A DNA stretch of 31,070 bases from a virus: positions 1 to 31,070 of IMG/VR virus record IMGVR_UViG_3300015371_000125; one strand, given 5' to 3'. The notes beneath the pieces were generated by a model, which worked only from the letters and a program-made list of their open reading frames with translations, was not told the origin of the DNA and made no database searches. A program made the translations under genes and the position numbers. Positions 8,262 to 17,055 of the stretch are shown here, piece after piece (within the stretch, counting starts at the first letter, position 1; the number at the start of each line of letters is the position of its first letter).

Positions 8262-9715
8262 ATCTCCTTCAGCGCCTTCGCGGCGGCTCTCGGGCGATGC
8301 CCCCGTATTTTGGTGTGGACACCTATGCAGCGATGGTTAACGACGCCATGGCCGGCTATTACGCCTCTGGCAACCCGCCCATGGAGACGACACTGGGCAA
8401 CCTTGAGGCCGAGCCGATCGAGGACTCGTTTCTCGGCTTCGTGCGCGGTGCCTATAAGGCCAACGGCCCGATTTTTTCGTGCATGGTGGTTCGCCAGCTC
8501 GTCTTTTCTGCGGTCCGCTTCCAGTTCCAGAGATTTCAGAACGGCCGGCCGAGTGAGTTCGTCAACCCGTCGAACCTGAGACTCCTCGAGCGGCCCTGGA
8601 TCGGCGGCACGACGCAGGACCTCCTGGCCCGGATGCTTCAGGACGCCGACACGGCGGGCAATTCGTACTGGACGCTGTGGCGGCCTGACCTTGTGGACAG
8701 CGCCATGGGCGCTCGCGAGGAGCTTGTCCGGCTGCGTCCTGACTGGGTCCAGATCCTGCTGAGGCCCCGCATGGACCCCCGTGGGTATGGCCAGGACGGT
8801 CAGCGCAAACTTGCTCAGCTCGGTTGGGAACGTTTGGGCTATCTCTACACCGAAGGCGGCGCAAGGTCGGGTGCAGATCCGGTTTTTCTACAGCGGGACG
8901 AGGTTGCCCACTTCGCACCGCTGACTGATCCTGAATTCAGCTACCGCGGCATGAGCTGGATCACCCCACTGGTCCGTGAGGTCATGGCCGACAAGCTGAT
9001 GACCGAGCATCAGATGCAGTTCTTCGAGAATGGCGCGACGCCCAACCTCGCGATCATCTATCCGATCGAGGCCTCTTACGACGAGGTCAAGAAGTTCCGG
9101 GATCTGATGCGCGCCGAGCACGAGGGCGTGGAGAACGCCTATAAGGACCTTCACATCGGCCAAGGCGCTGACGTGCGACCCGTGGGCGCGGATTTGCGGC
9201 AAATTGAGTTCGAGACCGTCCGGGCGCAAGGTGAGACCCGTATCGCCATGGCCGCCCGGGTTCCTCCGATCATCGCCGGCATGTCCAAGGGTCTTGACTC
9301 TGCCACCTATAGCAACTACGGCCAGGCTCGCCGCGCGTTCGCCGACCTGACCATGCACCCCATGTGGGGCAATGCCTCCGGCTCGATGGAGACGATTCTG
9401 CCGCCGCCCAACTTCGCCACACGGCTCTGGTACGACGCGCGGGATGTGCCTTTCCTTCGCGAGGACAGCAAGGACGCCGCGGAGGTCCAGGCAGCCCAGG
9501 CTCAGACAATTGCAACCCTTACACGCGAGGGCTTCACCCCGGAGAGTGTCGTCAATGCCGTCCTGTCGGGCGACTACGGACTCCTGAAGCACACCGGACG
9601 CGTCTCGGTTCAGCTCTACGCGGCAGACGGCTCGGACGCCGAGGCGCCACCCAAGCCCAAGGCACTCCCAGCACCCAAGGAGGACCAAGGTGACACAGGC
9701 GCTTTTGCAGCGTAA
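8258..9715 (+). CDS. Portal protein (HK97-like)
   Basis: A 485-residue protein forming the dodecameric DNA entry ring. Typical features: SFLGFVRGAYKANGPIFSCMVVRQLVFS near the start, LLARMLQDADTAGNSYW, a DEVAHFAPLTDPEFSYRGMSWI segment, LMTEHQMQFFENGATPNLAI and the long C-terminal GMSKGLDSATYSNYGQARRAFADLTMHPMW region. Length is as expected. The disordered C-terminus (PPKPKALPAPKEDQGDTG) overlaps the start of the protease gene by 26 bases. Confidence 0.92.
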   Translation: MNLLQRLRGGSRAMPPYFGVDTYAAMVNDAMAGYYASGNPPMETTLGNLEAEPIEDSFLGFVRGAYKANGPIFSCMVVRQLVFSAVRFQFQRFQNGRPSEFVNPSNLRLLERPWIGGTTQDLLARMLQDADTAGNSYWTLWRPDLVDSAMGAREELVRLRPDWVQILLRPRMDPRGYGQDGQRKLAQLGWERLGYLYTEGGARSGADPVFLQRDEVAHFAPLTDPEFSYRGMSWITPLVREVMADKLMTEHQMQFFENGATPNLAIIYPIEASYDEVKKFRDLMRAEHEGVENAYKDLHIGQGADVRPVGADLRQIEFETVRAQGETRIAMAARVPPIIAGMSKGLDSATYSNYGQARRAFADLTMHPMWGNASGSMETILPPPNFATRLWYDARDVPFLREDSKDAAEVQAAQAQTIATLTREGFTPESVVNAVLSGDYGLLKHTGRVSVQLYAADGSDAEAPPKPKALPAPKEDQGDTGAFAA

Positions 9716-10652
9716 GGCCTCGGCGGTCGAGCGAGCTGGCCTCAGCGGGGCCGCTCAGTTCAAGACACGCGCCGAAGGTGAGGGCACTGGCGACGGCCTC
9801 ACCCTCAGCGGGGTCGCGGCGGTTTTCAACAAGCCCACGATTATCAACTCCTGGGAGGGCCACTTCCGCGAGCAACTGGCTAACGGCTCATGGCGGAAGA
9901 CCCTCCGCGAGATGACTCCGGTGATGCAGTTCGATCACGGCGAGCACGCCTCCATCGGCAGCCTTCCGATCGGCTATTACACCAGGACTGCTGAGGAGAA
10001 TGACGGCGTCGCGGTCGAAGGCCGGCTATTCAAGGCCCCCATCTTTGAGCCAGTCCGCGAAGGTATCGCGGCTCAGGCGATCCGCGGGATGTCCTTCCGC
10101 TTTGAGGTGATCCGCGACAAGTGGGTGACCCCGGACGGCAAGGTCCTCCGGGACAACGAGGAGATCCTTCGCGCGATCTACACGACCCCCATTGACGCTG
10201 ATGAGGGCGAGCTCATGACTCGCACCATCCAGGAGGTCCGGGTCCCCGAGATGGGCCCCGTCGTCTTTCCCGCATACGCAGAGACTTCGGTCGATGTGCG
10301 TTCCCGAGCGGTCGTAATCGACCTCGGTGGAACCCGAGAGGCCCAGATTTCCCAGCTCAAGCGAGCGCAAGACCAGCTCGCCGAGATGATCAAGCAACTA
10401 GACGCCAAAGAGAGGGCCGCCCCCGAGCCGCGAGCAGGGCACTCGACAGAGGTCGAGCCGCCTGAGGAGCACTCGGAGGATGAGGTCGACTCTGAGGAGG
10501 CAGAACCCGAGCCGCGAGTAGAGCACTCAGCCCCCGAGGCTGAGCCGCCCGAGGAGCACTCGGCCGAGCGCCAAACAACCGACATATTCGACGAGGCCCG
10601 TGCGCGCATACAGGCACGCATGGCCAAAATCAGAAAGGAAACACCCCTGTGA
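9690..10652 (+). CDS. Prohead protease (HK97 family, S78)
   Basis: A 320-residue protein with GTG start and AAGGAGG upstream. The protease domain spans about residues 25-200, with LSGVAAVFNKPT, then MQFDHGEHASIGSLPIG (likely His83) and IRGMSFRF (likely Ser135), the usual S78 catalytic pair. It cleaves the scaffold (delta) domain of the capsid protein during head maturation. After a coiled coil (LKRAQDQLAEMIKQLDAKE), residues about 255-300 form a very acidic tail containing two similar blocks (PEPRAGHS...EPPEEHS and PEPRVEHS...EPPEEHS). The tail may act as scaffold; that is inference. The stop overlaps the capsid start. Confidence 0.9.
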   Translation: MTQALLQRKASAVERAGLSGAAQFKTRAEGEGTGDGLTLSGVAAVFNKPTIINSWEGHFREQLANGSWRKTLREMTPVMQFDHGEHASIGSLPIGYYTRTAEENDGVAVEGRLFKAPIFEPVREGIAAQAIRGMSFRFEVIRDKWVTPDGKVLRDNEEILRAIYTTPIDADEGELMTRTIQEVRVPEMGPVVFPAYAETSVDVRSRAVVIDLGGTREAQISQLKRAQDQLAEMIKQLDAKERAAPEPRAGHSTEVEPPEEHSEDEVDSEEAEPEPRVEHSAPEAEPPEEHSAERQTTDIFDEARARIQARMAKIRKETPL

Positions 10653-13267: not shown

Positions 13268-13582
13268 ATGGCCCGCGACAATAAGGGCTTTGTCTGCCAC
13301 AGCCACACGACGAAGGTCTCTTATGAGATCCACCACGTCTGGCCCAAGGAGTACCACGGGCCCGACACCAAGGCGAACAAGGTCAAGATCTGCTGTAACG
13401 CCCATTCGGACATCCATTACTTGCTGGAGCGGATGTTAGGCGGAAAGCTGTATGACCTAAGAGAGTTCGGCCCCCAGGTCCGCCAGCTCGCCCAGAGTGG
13501 CTATGAGCAGGTAGTCGCCTACGCCGATAGTCTGGCTAGCCAGATGGAAGACAGGAGGTCTGATGCGTCCAGATCTCCCTGA
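13268..13582 (+). CDS. HNH nuclease-like small protein after capsid genes
   Basis: A 104-residue protein (MARDNKGFVCHSHTTKVS...). The core YEIHHVWPKEYHGPDTKANKVKICC-type region, split as EIHHVWPKEYHG, then ANKVKICCNAH and SDIHYLL, has the His-His, Asn and final His spacing of an HNH beta-beta-alpha metal fold. The zinc CxxC pairs of the longer HNH proteins are absent. Start ATG has GGGGGGA upstream. It overlaps the next gene by 20 bases. It may be a packaging helper or a free-standing homing nuclease; a structural role with a lost nuclease activity cannot be excluded. Confidence 0.65.
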   Translation: MARDNKGFVCHSHTTKVSYEIHHVWPKEYHGPDTKANKVKICCNAHSDIHYLLERMLGGKLYDLREFGPQVRQLAQSGYEQVVAYADSLASQMEDRRSDASRSP

Positions 13583-14885: not shown

Positions 14886-16118
14886 TTGCACAAATCTTCG
14901 GCGGCACTCGCGGCGCTTGTACTCTGCGCCCTGGCCAGCCCGGCGTACGCAGCTCCTAGGCCGGCACCCGCGCCGGATACCACGATCACGTCCGTCAAAG
15001 ACAACGACTCTCCGGTCGGGGTCTTCATCGACGAGGACGGCGGCGGTGACGAGGGTGTGGTCGTTACCTACACCACTACTAACGCCACGGGTGCTCAGTT
15101 CAGCTTTGATAGTGGCGCTTGGCAGTCGTTGGGGGCGACTCCCGCATCGGTGCCTTTTCCTGTCGGGACGCACACGCTGAACGTGCGCGCTACGGCTAAG
15201 GGTGGCGTAGTCGATCCGACACCAGCAACGGTGTCGATCACCATGTGCCCGCAAGCTGGCTGTGCTACCGCGTCGCCTACACCGACGCCAACGCCGACGA
15301 CGGCTAGCCCTACGCCCACGCCGACCCCTACGCCCACCACAGCGAGCCCGACGCCGACCCCTACCACAGCAAGCCCTACGCCCACGCCGACATCGACGCA
15401 AAGCGCAGCGCCGCAGCCCAGCGGCCCCACCGGGACCTGGAATCTGGCCTTTCAAGACGAGTTCAGCGGCACCTCGCTGGACACCACGAAATGGAACCCG
15501 CAAGACGGGCGCACCAACAACAACGTGATCAGCGAGGCCGATGACATCACCGTGTCCGGCGGCAATGCGCACGTCTTCCTCAGCCAATCCGGCACCCAGG
15601 TCTACGGCGGATTCGCCGAGACCCGCACTTTCAACGTGATGCCCGGGACCGCGGTTGAGGCACGGGTCTATATGCCCGGAGCGTGCGCGGCCGGCGCAAC
15701 CTCGTGCAGCGAGGACATCTATGACTGGCCCGGCCTGGTGTGGACATCGGCCCGCGTCGACTGGTCCGAAGATGGCGAATACGACATCGCAGAGGGCCTC
15801 GGCGGCAGCCTGACGATCAATTACCACTCATGCAACGACACGACACCGACCCCTGGCTGTGGCGATGTGTCCAACAATGGCAGCCCCACTCCAACCTGCT
15901 GCTACGGCAACGAATGGCACACCGTCACCCTGGTGCGCGGCGCAACAAGCTCCAAGATCTATTGGGATGGCACGCTACAGCGCACTATTGCAGTGACGGA
16001 CTCCGGCAAGGCGCAGTCGATCATCATGAATATCGGCAAGTCCAACAGCCGCGCGGTGCATCTTGGCACGCAGGGTGAAGCGCTTGTCGACTACGTACGG
16101 GCCTGGACGCCGGCATGA
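14886..16118 (+). CDS. Secreted GH16-like glucanase
   Basis: A 410-residue protein, TTG start with GGGGGG six bases upstream. Signal peptide at residues 1-22 (basic start, hydrophobic core, cleavage after AYA). Residues 23-125 form an Ig-like beta module, 126-182 a Pro/Thr-rich linker (repeats of TASPTPTPT), and 183-410 a concanavalin-like GH16 domain starting WNLAFQDEFSGTSLDTTKWN. The catalytic signature GEYDIAEG (E298-x-D300-x-x-E303) is intact, followed by LTINYHS and IYWDG. Likely an exported enzyme cutting beta-linked glucan or galactan. A paralogous domain lies in the tail protein at 25152. The stop overlaps the peptidase start. Confidence 0.85.
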   Translation: MHKSSAALAALVLCALASPAYAAPRPAPAPDTTITSVKDNDSPVGVFIDEDGGGDEGVVVTYTTTNATGAQFSFDSGAWQSLGATPASVPFPVGTHTLNVRATAKGGVVDPTPATVSITMCPQAGCATASPTPTPTPTTASPTPTPTPTPTTASPTPTPTTASPTPTPTSTQSAAPQPSGPTGTWNLAFQDEFSGTSLDTTKWNPQDGRTNNNVISEADDITVSGGNAHVFLSQSGTQVYGGFAETRTFNVMPGTAVEARVYMPGACAAGATSCSEDIYDWPGLVWTSARVDWSEDGEYDIAEGLGGSLTINYHSCNDTTPTPGCGDVSNNGSPTPTCCYGNEWHTVTLVRGATSSKIYWDGTLQRTIAVTDSGKAQSIIMNIGKSNSRAVHLGTQGEALVDYVRAWTPA

Positions 16119-16816
16119 CCGAGGGTCCTCTGGGCCGGCGGCCGCCCACTGACTGGCGACACGTCGAGCGCTACCCACTGAGCGCCCTCGCGGGCCCGGA
16201 TCGACCAACCGAGGTCCCGAGTCCGGTCGGGGTCAACTGGTATGCAGAGTTTGACCATCCAGTCCAGAGCAACAAGGACCGGCGTTGGCGAGTAGCCCAG
16301 AGCGGCAGGCTGACGCGCGTCCGCGGCGGCCATTGCGTGTGTTTCTCCCCACCGTTCGTGACTGACACGACGCGCTGGTGGAGGTTCTACGACCAGGGCC
16401 AAGAGGGCGCCTGCGTGGGTTTCGGAGCCTCCCGCGCCATGTCCCTGCTGAACCGCAAAAGCTATGACGCTCGCTGGCTGTATCACGCAGCTCAGGAGAT
16501 CGACGAGTGGGCTGACACGCCCCCCGAGGAAGGCACGAGCGTACGCGCTGGTCTGGAGATCCTCCGCACTAGCGGTCATAGGGTGATGCGGGCTGGCTTC
16601 CCGCACCCCCCCAACCCGCGCGAGGGGATTGCGGTGTATCGCTGGGCGACCAGTATCGACGACTGGCTAGCCGCCATTGGCAGGCCCGGCGCCGACGAGG
16701 TCCCCTTCCTTAACTCATGGGGCACGACATACAGCCACATCACCTGGATGCCGACCGAGGTTGTGGAGCGGCTCCTCCGTGAGGACGGGGAGTTCCCCGT
16801 GATCACGGACAAATGA
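16115..16816 (+). CDS. Papain-like cysteine peptidase with permuted active-site order
   Basis: A 233-residue protein in ATGA overlap with the GH16 gene. Papain signatures: DQGQEGACVGF (oxyanion Gln94, nucleophile Cys100) followed by YDARWLYHAAQ, and FLNSWGTTY (Asn200). The His that normally lies between them appears instead upstream as VRGGHCVCF (His73), together with the PVGVNWYAEFD strand that normally precedes it. The order is thus His-Cys-Asn rather than Cys-His-Asn, consistent with circular permutation of the C1 fold. No signal peptide. Substrate unknown; it could process a virion protein or a host target. It is coupled to a ParB-like gene downstream. Confidence 0.75.
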   Translation: MTEGPLGRRPPTDWRHVERYPLSALAGPDRPTEVPSPVGVNWYAEFDHPVQSNKDRRWRVAQSGRLTRVRGGHCVCFSPPFVTDTTRWWRFYDQGQEGACVGFGASRAMSLLNRKSYDARWLYHAAQEIDEWADTPPEEGTSVRAGLEILRTSGHRVMRAGFPHPPNPREGIAVYRWATSIDDWLAAIGRPGADEVPFLNSWGTTYSHITWMPTEVVERLLREDGEFPVITDK

Positions 16817-17055
16817 CCCTGATCCCGCTCGAGCTAATCCTGTTCGGGCGCAATCCGCCCGCCGGTATGGATCTAGCGGTTATTGGTCTTTGGACAGCGA
16901 GGCTGCGGAAGACCGCCGAGCCGGTCGAGCCGCCGATCCAGGTCACGATCGTCGATCACTGTTATTACCGCGTCCACGACGGGCGACATCGAGTCTTCGG
17001 CGCATATGTCGCGGGGCGCACTCACATCGAGGCCGAAATCATTACCGACAAGTAG
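16813..17055 (+). CDS. ParB/sulfiredoxin-like small protein
   Basis: An 80-residue protein starting in an ATGA overlap with the peptidase. The C-terminal YYRVHDGRHRVFGAYVAGRTHIEAEI matches the DGxHR box of the ParB/Srx N-terminal fold, in which the GxHR loop binds nucleotide. The N-terminus supplies a short beta segment. The full ParB DNA-binding part is missing. Small stand-alone members of this fold can be nucleotide-dependent enzymes; here the role is unknown and may be linked to the coupled peptidase. Confidence 0.65.
   Translation: MTLIPLELILFGRNPPAGMDLAVIGLWTARLRKTAEPVEPPIQVTIVDHCYYRVHDGRHRVFGAYVAGRTHIEAEIITDK

Follow-up and report, generated by a model that had tools for sequence, protein, structure and literature searches.

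Papain-like peptidases of family C1 carry their catalytic residues in the chain order Cys-His-Asn. This order is also present in xylellain (Protein Data Bank (PDB) entry 3ois), and transfer of xylellain-type genes into Caudoviricetes has been reported (PMC10380794); the string "permut" is not used in the main text of that study of C1A evolution. The available portion of a survey of the papain-like superfamily (PMC10318531) describes circular permutation of the α-helix with or without strand β1′, and permuted strands in OTUD5 and in a small number of viral enzymes; we found in it no mention of a β1–β2 transposition or of a His-Cys-Asn catalytic order. Non-cyclic permutations within a domain have been described as rare (PMC3863775, PMC10085705). 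In the permuted-palm RNA polymerases of birnaviruses and permutotetraviruses (PMC4666646), an internal catalytic motif has an upstream position (order C-A-B), while the remainder of the enzyme stays in place and the active site is preserved, and the HK97-fold capsid protein of BPP-1 (PMC3863775) is a phage protein with a non-circular permutation. Here, we describe a gene from positions 1 to 31,070 of the IMG/VR virus record IMGVR_UViG_3300015371_000125, a stretch of 31,070 nucleotides that is referred to as the window. We consider it highly probable that the gene encodes a xylellain-type (papain/C1-like) cysteine peptidase whose own ~45-residue β1–β2 hairpin, together with the catalytic histidine, was transposed inside the gene, and that the displaced hairpin rebuilds the active site.

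The open reading frame (ORF) starts with ATG and encodes 233 amino acids followed by a stop codon. It contains the motifs VRGGHCVCF (His73), DQGQEGACVGF (Cys100), and FLNSWG (Asn200), and the chain order of the window peptidase is therefore His-Cys-Asn. These motifs and residue numbers, as well as a VGVNWY strand before the cysteine, had been reported in the initial annotation, and all of them were found in the ORF. Relatives were gathered by searching viral contigs and bacterial genomes, and their ORFs were extracted and sorted into the two chain orders. The initial annotation had proposed a search for homologues with the same His-before-Cys order, and the ORF scan across all fetched loci identified 38 distinct proteins of this kind, from viral contigs, two Solirubrobacter isolate genomes, and one Gemmatimonadaceae metagenome-assembled genome. 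An assembly artefact or chimera is ruled out, as dozens of contigs show the order and both isolate genomes carry it intact. The alignment of permuted proteins (A2) contains 33 sequences, and that of near normal-order proteins (A3) contains ten. Since relatives with 36–63% identity are present in 32 other aligned loci, and the ratio of nonsynonymous to synonymous substitution rates (dN/dS) is 0.02–0.41 in the compared pairs with unsaturated dS, the window ORF is a real gene.

The GxNWY...RGGHxxC segment lies ahead of the cysteine in all 33 aligned permuted members. His73, Gln94, Glu97, Gly98, Cys100, Trp202, and Gly203 are invariant among them, and position 200 is asparagine in 32. A second cysteine, Cys76 (codon 16340–16342), located three residues past the catalytic histidine, is kept in 32 of the 33 proteins. 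The permuted protein of locus L040 (5001–5909) contains an insertion of ~55 residues following the Cys helix. The permuted protein of L035 (5001–5690), which lies on a long branch, reads LQSWG, with glutamine replacing the catalytic asparagine, and its active site is possibly degraded or altered.

The ten near relatives of normal order contain the same ~45-residue segment at its ordinary place between cysteine and asparagine. Their core identity to the window protein is 38–52%, and they share the LGRRxPTDWxHV N-terminal block, the Cys block, the RWATSVD stretch, and the NSWG block with the permuted set; the segment sits between RWATSVD and NSWG. Across the two orders, identity is highest between permuted L012 and normal-order L031, at 60% for the core and 56% for the segment. 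A hidden Markov model (HMM) of the permuted segment matched between cysteine and asparagine in 10/10 near normal-order proteins (35–68 bits) and in 34/34 far ones (median 19 bits, some near zero), and the HMM of the normal-order segment matched before the cysteine in 33/33 permuted proteins (26–78 bits). The best shuffled decoy reached 10.0 bits and the best reversed one 5.0 bits. Comparison of the two alignments by hhalign (E 7.6e-70, 190 columns at 45% identity) displayed two gaps that complement each other: one stretch, in the N-terminal third, is present in the query only, and another, of ~45 residues, is present in the template only and follows query residue 191. The mean identity between the two orders is 41.8% for the moved segment, which has a mean length of 46 residues, and 40.6% for the core. 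This equal divergence indicates that the segment moved within the gene, and makes its acquisition from a distant gene unlikely.

The GGH motif ahead of the cysteine could be coincidental or independently acquired, and the enzyme could be inactive or use another histidine in the normal order. The window protein does contain His124, His155, and His164 between Cys100 and Asn200. A conserved histidine at such a position, which the initial annotation had named as the finding that would complete a normal-order triad, is absent: the remaining histidine columns between Cys100 and Asn200 hold histidine in at most 19 of the 33 permuted members, whereas His73 is invariant. Furthermore, the segment before the cysteine is homologous to the normal-order His segment, with scores far above those of the shuffled controls, and the normal segment site is empty in the permuted members. 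We consider a coincidental motif very improbable; judged by conservation and homology, His73 is very probably the catalytic histidine.

The order of blocks N-A(Cys)-B(His)-C(Asn) was converted to N-B(His)-A(Cys)-C(Asn), which is a non-cyclic transposition. A homologous internal segment is located at another place, and the remaining blocks are collinear, as demonstrated by the HMMs, hhalign, and the equal divergence. The initial annotation had interpreted the locus as an apparent circular permutation. Its observation that the His strand precedes the cysteine, and that the order is rearranged relative to papain and close relatives, is borne out, but the rearrangement is of a different kind. A circular permutation of the papain domain would place the histidine ahead of the cysteine, as in the permuted NlpC/P60, PPPDE, and Ulp1-type groups. 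However, H-C-N is absent from the cyclic orders C-H-N, H-N-C, and N-C-H, and only the internal hairpin has moved, with both terminal blocks in place. Because N-B-A-C is no rotation of N-A-B-C, a circular permutation is extremely unlikely. Permuted NlpC/P60, PPPDE, strand-permuted OTUD5, and turnip yellow mosaic virus protease are also papain-like folds with altered chain order; they are known from structure, as rotations or as old strand permutations (PMC10318531), whereas here an internal hairpin has moved between sisters that are up to 60% identical.

AlphaFold2 models were built on alignments of each protein's own order, with 33 permuted and ten normal sequences. The model of the window protein has a predicted local distance difference test score (pLDDT) of 92.1 and a predicted template modelling score (pTM) of 0.90, and its block mean pLDDT over residues 31–80 is 92–96. 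It contains strands 36–43 and 69–77, the Cys helix 100–113, and the Asn strand 195–199. The normal-order protein of L033 (228 residues; pLDDT 88.7, pTM 0.89) has the equivalent strands 142–149 and 173–185 after the Cys helix and before the Asn strand. The closest structural match of both models is xylellain, and the matches listed for the permuted model are papain-type cysteine proteases with the two-domain fold. In sequence-ordered alignment to 3ois by VIA-align 2, the permuted model superimposed 169 of 233 residues (Z 12.3, root-mean-square deviation (rmsd) 3.3 Å) and L033 213 of 228 residues (Z 21.2, rmsd 2.9). The 44 residues by which the permuted model falls short match the moved segment in size; this is consistent with, but no proof of, the segment's placement in the old spatial position. 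A sequence search of solved structures with the window protein returned chance matches only. A BFVD fold search gave no match with a query template modelling score >0.48, but Foldseek is order-bound, and this absence is not proof.

Based on the models and the conserved residues, a mechanism of active-site reconstruction can be proposed. The β1–β2 hairpin with its loop ends is a plausible structural unit. In this gene it no longer separates the L-domain from the Asn strand but lies a short way upstream of the Cys helix, and it probably docks at the same R-domain position as before, for which the confident single-domain model is indirect support. His73, Cys100, Asn200, and Gln94 would thereby reassemble a normal papain active site, in which the Cys thiolate presumably attacks, the histidine acts as acid/base, the asparagine orients the histidine, and the glutamine lines the oxyanion hole. 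Re-ordered segments can swap between chains, and the transposed hairpin may complete the active site of a partner chain in a domain-swapped dimer instead of joining its own R-domain. The linker from the end of β2 (residue 77) to the start of the Cys helix (residue 100) could permit either arrangement. We consider the dimer unlikely, as the monomer is confidently modelled as one domain.

The rearrangement itself, the homology of the moved segment, the conservation of residues, and the confident globular models are established here. Several points weigh against the complete reading, in which the transposed hairpin rebuilds a working peptidase. The geometry of His73, Cys100, and Asn200, the spatial reassembly of the active site, and peptidase activity are inferred, and the models rest on 33 and ten sequences. 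The domain-swapped dimer would also satisfy the data. Single members deviate from the consensus, with GEH for GGH in L030 and glutamine for asparagine in L035. Finally, among 186 family ORFs, none flanks its Cys block with two copies of the segment, as an intermediate would.

The normal order is most simply ancestral, because all distant relatives have it, including that of Streptomyces phage DekoNeimoidia. In the tree calculated from the core only, the near normal-order proteins are split, with three outside the permuted set and seven, around L031, inside it. The permuted label requires two changes on this tree, and no bootstrap tree (0%) separates the permuted proteins from all others by a single branch. 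It is conceivable, but doubtful, that permuted genes originated repeatedly or went back to the normal order, perhaps by recombination of phages within the gene; either history would be compatible with the transposition of the hairpin. The seven nested normal-order proteins speak for repeated switching; against it, a single permuted clade is not rejected by the approximately unbiased test (p-AU 0.28), and the deep supports are modest. The tree of the segment only (46 columns) is not resolved. One transposition, a transposition plus a reversion, or two events are all possible. We speculate, tentatively, that in phages this family went through repeated switches between His-Cys-Asn and Cys-His-Asn, with identity still at ~60%; the chain order of a catalytic domain would then be a changeable character with sequence-resolved states before and after the change.

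Two normal-order loci contain irregular genes. In L055 (1820–2767), ~47 amino acids (YEGTSVLAG...AVLGVPW repeated) at the end of the Cys block and strand β1 are duplicated in tandem and in frame; this duplication could be a real step of a kind that might lead to rearrangement, or an assembly error. In L034 (2336–3045), the gene is split by a frameshift, and the Cys block and the His segment are in two overlapping ORFs.

The protein shares with papain C1/clan CA enzymes a cysteine at the start of a long helix and a glutamine six residues upstream of it, and the triad is completed, according to conservation and homology, by His73 and Asn200. Since the order is His-Cys-Asn in all 33 aligned members, their sequences define a derived variant of the family and not a canonical member. 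The fold and catalytic residues are those of xylellain and other xylellain-type bacterial and phage C1A peptidases, and the difference lies in the chain order. The phrog_16701 peptidases of Streptomyces phages BillNye, Circinus, Wakanda, and DekoNeimoidia are homologous and share the Cys block, the GxNWY...GGH segment, and NSWG. PF00112 (Peptidase_C1) matched none of the 33 permuted members at E up to 1 and four of the ten normal-order relatives (best E 0.0087), and a Pfam search with the window peptidase returned nothing. The PHROGs profile phrog_16701 "peptidase" matched only residues 91–189 of the window protein, the Cys block (E 2.1e-9), whereas in L033 it covered residues 3–222 (profile 4–226 of 234). 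The transposed order thus causes order-bound profile searches to miss or truncate these genes. INPHARED isolate phages searched with five permuted queries gave solely normal-order relatives, partial matches, or nothing; a plasmid search gave one short match, to a C1 peptidase.

A papain-like peptidase is a known kind of protein, and the unusual value of this one is the survival of both topologies at high identity. Natural enzymes whose chain has been reshuffled in some way other than circular permutation are rare, and this is one of them. The events behind the BPP-1 capsid protein and the permuted polymerase palm date back so far that it is mainly structures that reveal them. The former is a structural protein without recognisable sequence similarity to its unpermuted form, so that its origin cannot be read from sequence (PMC3863775), and the latter belongs to an unrelated enzyme with deep divergence of permuted and canonical forms (PMC4666646). 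In the present family, enzymes of both chain orders exist side by side with identities of up to 60%, and the breakpoints, the order of events, and the stability and activity of both topologies are directly testable.

Table 1 Features of the permuted peptidase gene and its flanking genes in the window.
Feature	Positions	Strand	Evidence
Upstream secreted ConA-like/GH16-like gene, overlaps peptidase start (ATGA)	14886..16118	+	Sub-threshold PF13385; EYDIAE motif, signal-like N-terminus
Segment-transposed papain-like peptidase gene, 233 aa	16115..16816	+	ORF; relatives in 32 other aligned loci; purifying selection; AlphaFold2 pLDDT 92.1, pTM 0.90
N-terminal block, residues 1–31, LGRRxPTDWxHVxxYPL; same place in permuted and normal-order relatives	16115..16207	+	hhalign A2 vs A3
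Transposed segment B, residues 33–79: β1 (VGVNWY), loop, β2 with RGGHCVC; between Cys and Asn in normal-order relatives	16211..16351	+	Two-way segment HMMs with shuffled/reversed controls; hhalign gaps; predicted strands 36–43, 69–77
His73 codon, proposed catalytic His (papain His159 position)	16331..16333	+	Invariant 33/33; homologous to His of normal-order segment
Block A, residues 81–191: Cys helix plus L-domain; position shared by both orders	16355..16687	+	hhalign; sole region matched by phrog_16701
Gln94 codon, proposed oxyanion-hole residue	16394..16396	+	Invariant 33/33; 6 residues before Cys as in papain
Cys100 codon, proposed nucleophile	16412..16414	+	Invariant 33/33; begins predicted helix 100–113
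Vacated site, junction ~residue 191/192, where normal-order relatives hold segment B	16685..16690	+	hhalign template-only stretch, ~45 residues
Block C, residues 192–233: Asn strand (FLNSWG) to C-terminus	16688..16813	+	Alignments of both orders; hhalign
Asn200 codon, proposed third catalytic residue	16712..16714	+	Asn 32/33, Gln in one
Downstream 80-aa gene, ParB-like look, overlaps peptidase stop (ATGA)	16813..17055	+	Resemblance by eye only

The permuted peptidases of two Solirubrobacter species (L083:5995–6681 and L084:5995–6681) are located amid bacterial genes, including a SpoIIE/GAF regulator and an RTX-repeat protein. The region upstream is conserved between both species, and the dN/dS of the pair is 0.24. 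Together with the bacterial neighbours, this suggests that a phage gene was kept by the host. Among 299 sampled genomes from the class of Solirubrobacter, no full-length member other than G002 was found, and two further matches are partial.

The window contains a siphovirus-like structural module of terminase, portal, S78 prohead protease, HK97 capsid, connectors, the peptidase region, and tail genes, the last of which were assigned by order and length. The initial annotation had coupled the peptidase to a secreted GH16 enzyme and a ParB-like protein (Table 1). The upstream gene does encode an ExDxxE-like motif, but its only Pfam match is the sub-threshold one to concanavalin A (ConA)-like lectins/glucanases, and no PDB sequence match was found. 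The ParB-like label is likewise less well supported, as the downstream ORF had no match in Pfam or PHROG. A special link of the peptidase with these two genes is not supported, because the neighbourhood is not conserved among relatives. Apart from subgroup-specific neighbours, a crude gene caller and clustering detected no conserved operon partner among them. In L001 the gene after the peptidase is a portal gene; the gene before it is portal-like in L009 and encodes an SLT transglycosylase in L012; in L085 the peptidase is followed by a β-helix protein; and in Solirubrobacter it is surrounded by host genes. Such variable surroundings fit an accessory gene. An S78/phrog_80 prohead protease of the phage itself is encoded at 9690–10652, beside portal and capsid; the peptidase is thus not needed for ordinary head maturation, and such a role is unlikely. 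The peptidase presumably has a non-maturation accessory ("moron"-like) role in the late gene region. Our working guess, offered with reserve, is that the protein works as a cysteine endopeptidase on proteins of the host or the envelope in late infection; a virion-associated use appears less probable, and counter-defence slightly less probable again. A small homing-endonuclease-like ORF (13268–13582; phrog_655, E 0.001) is located between the capsid and connector genes of the window.
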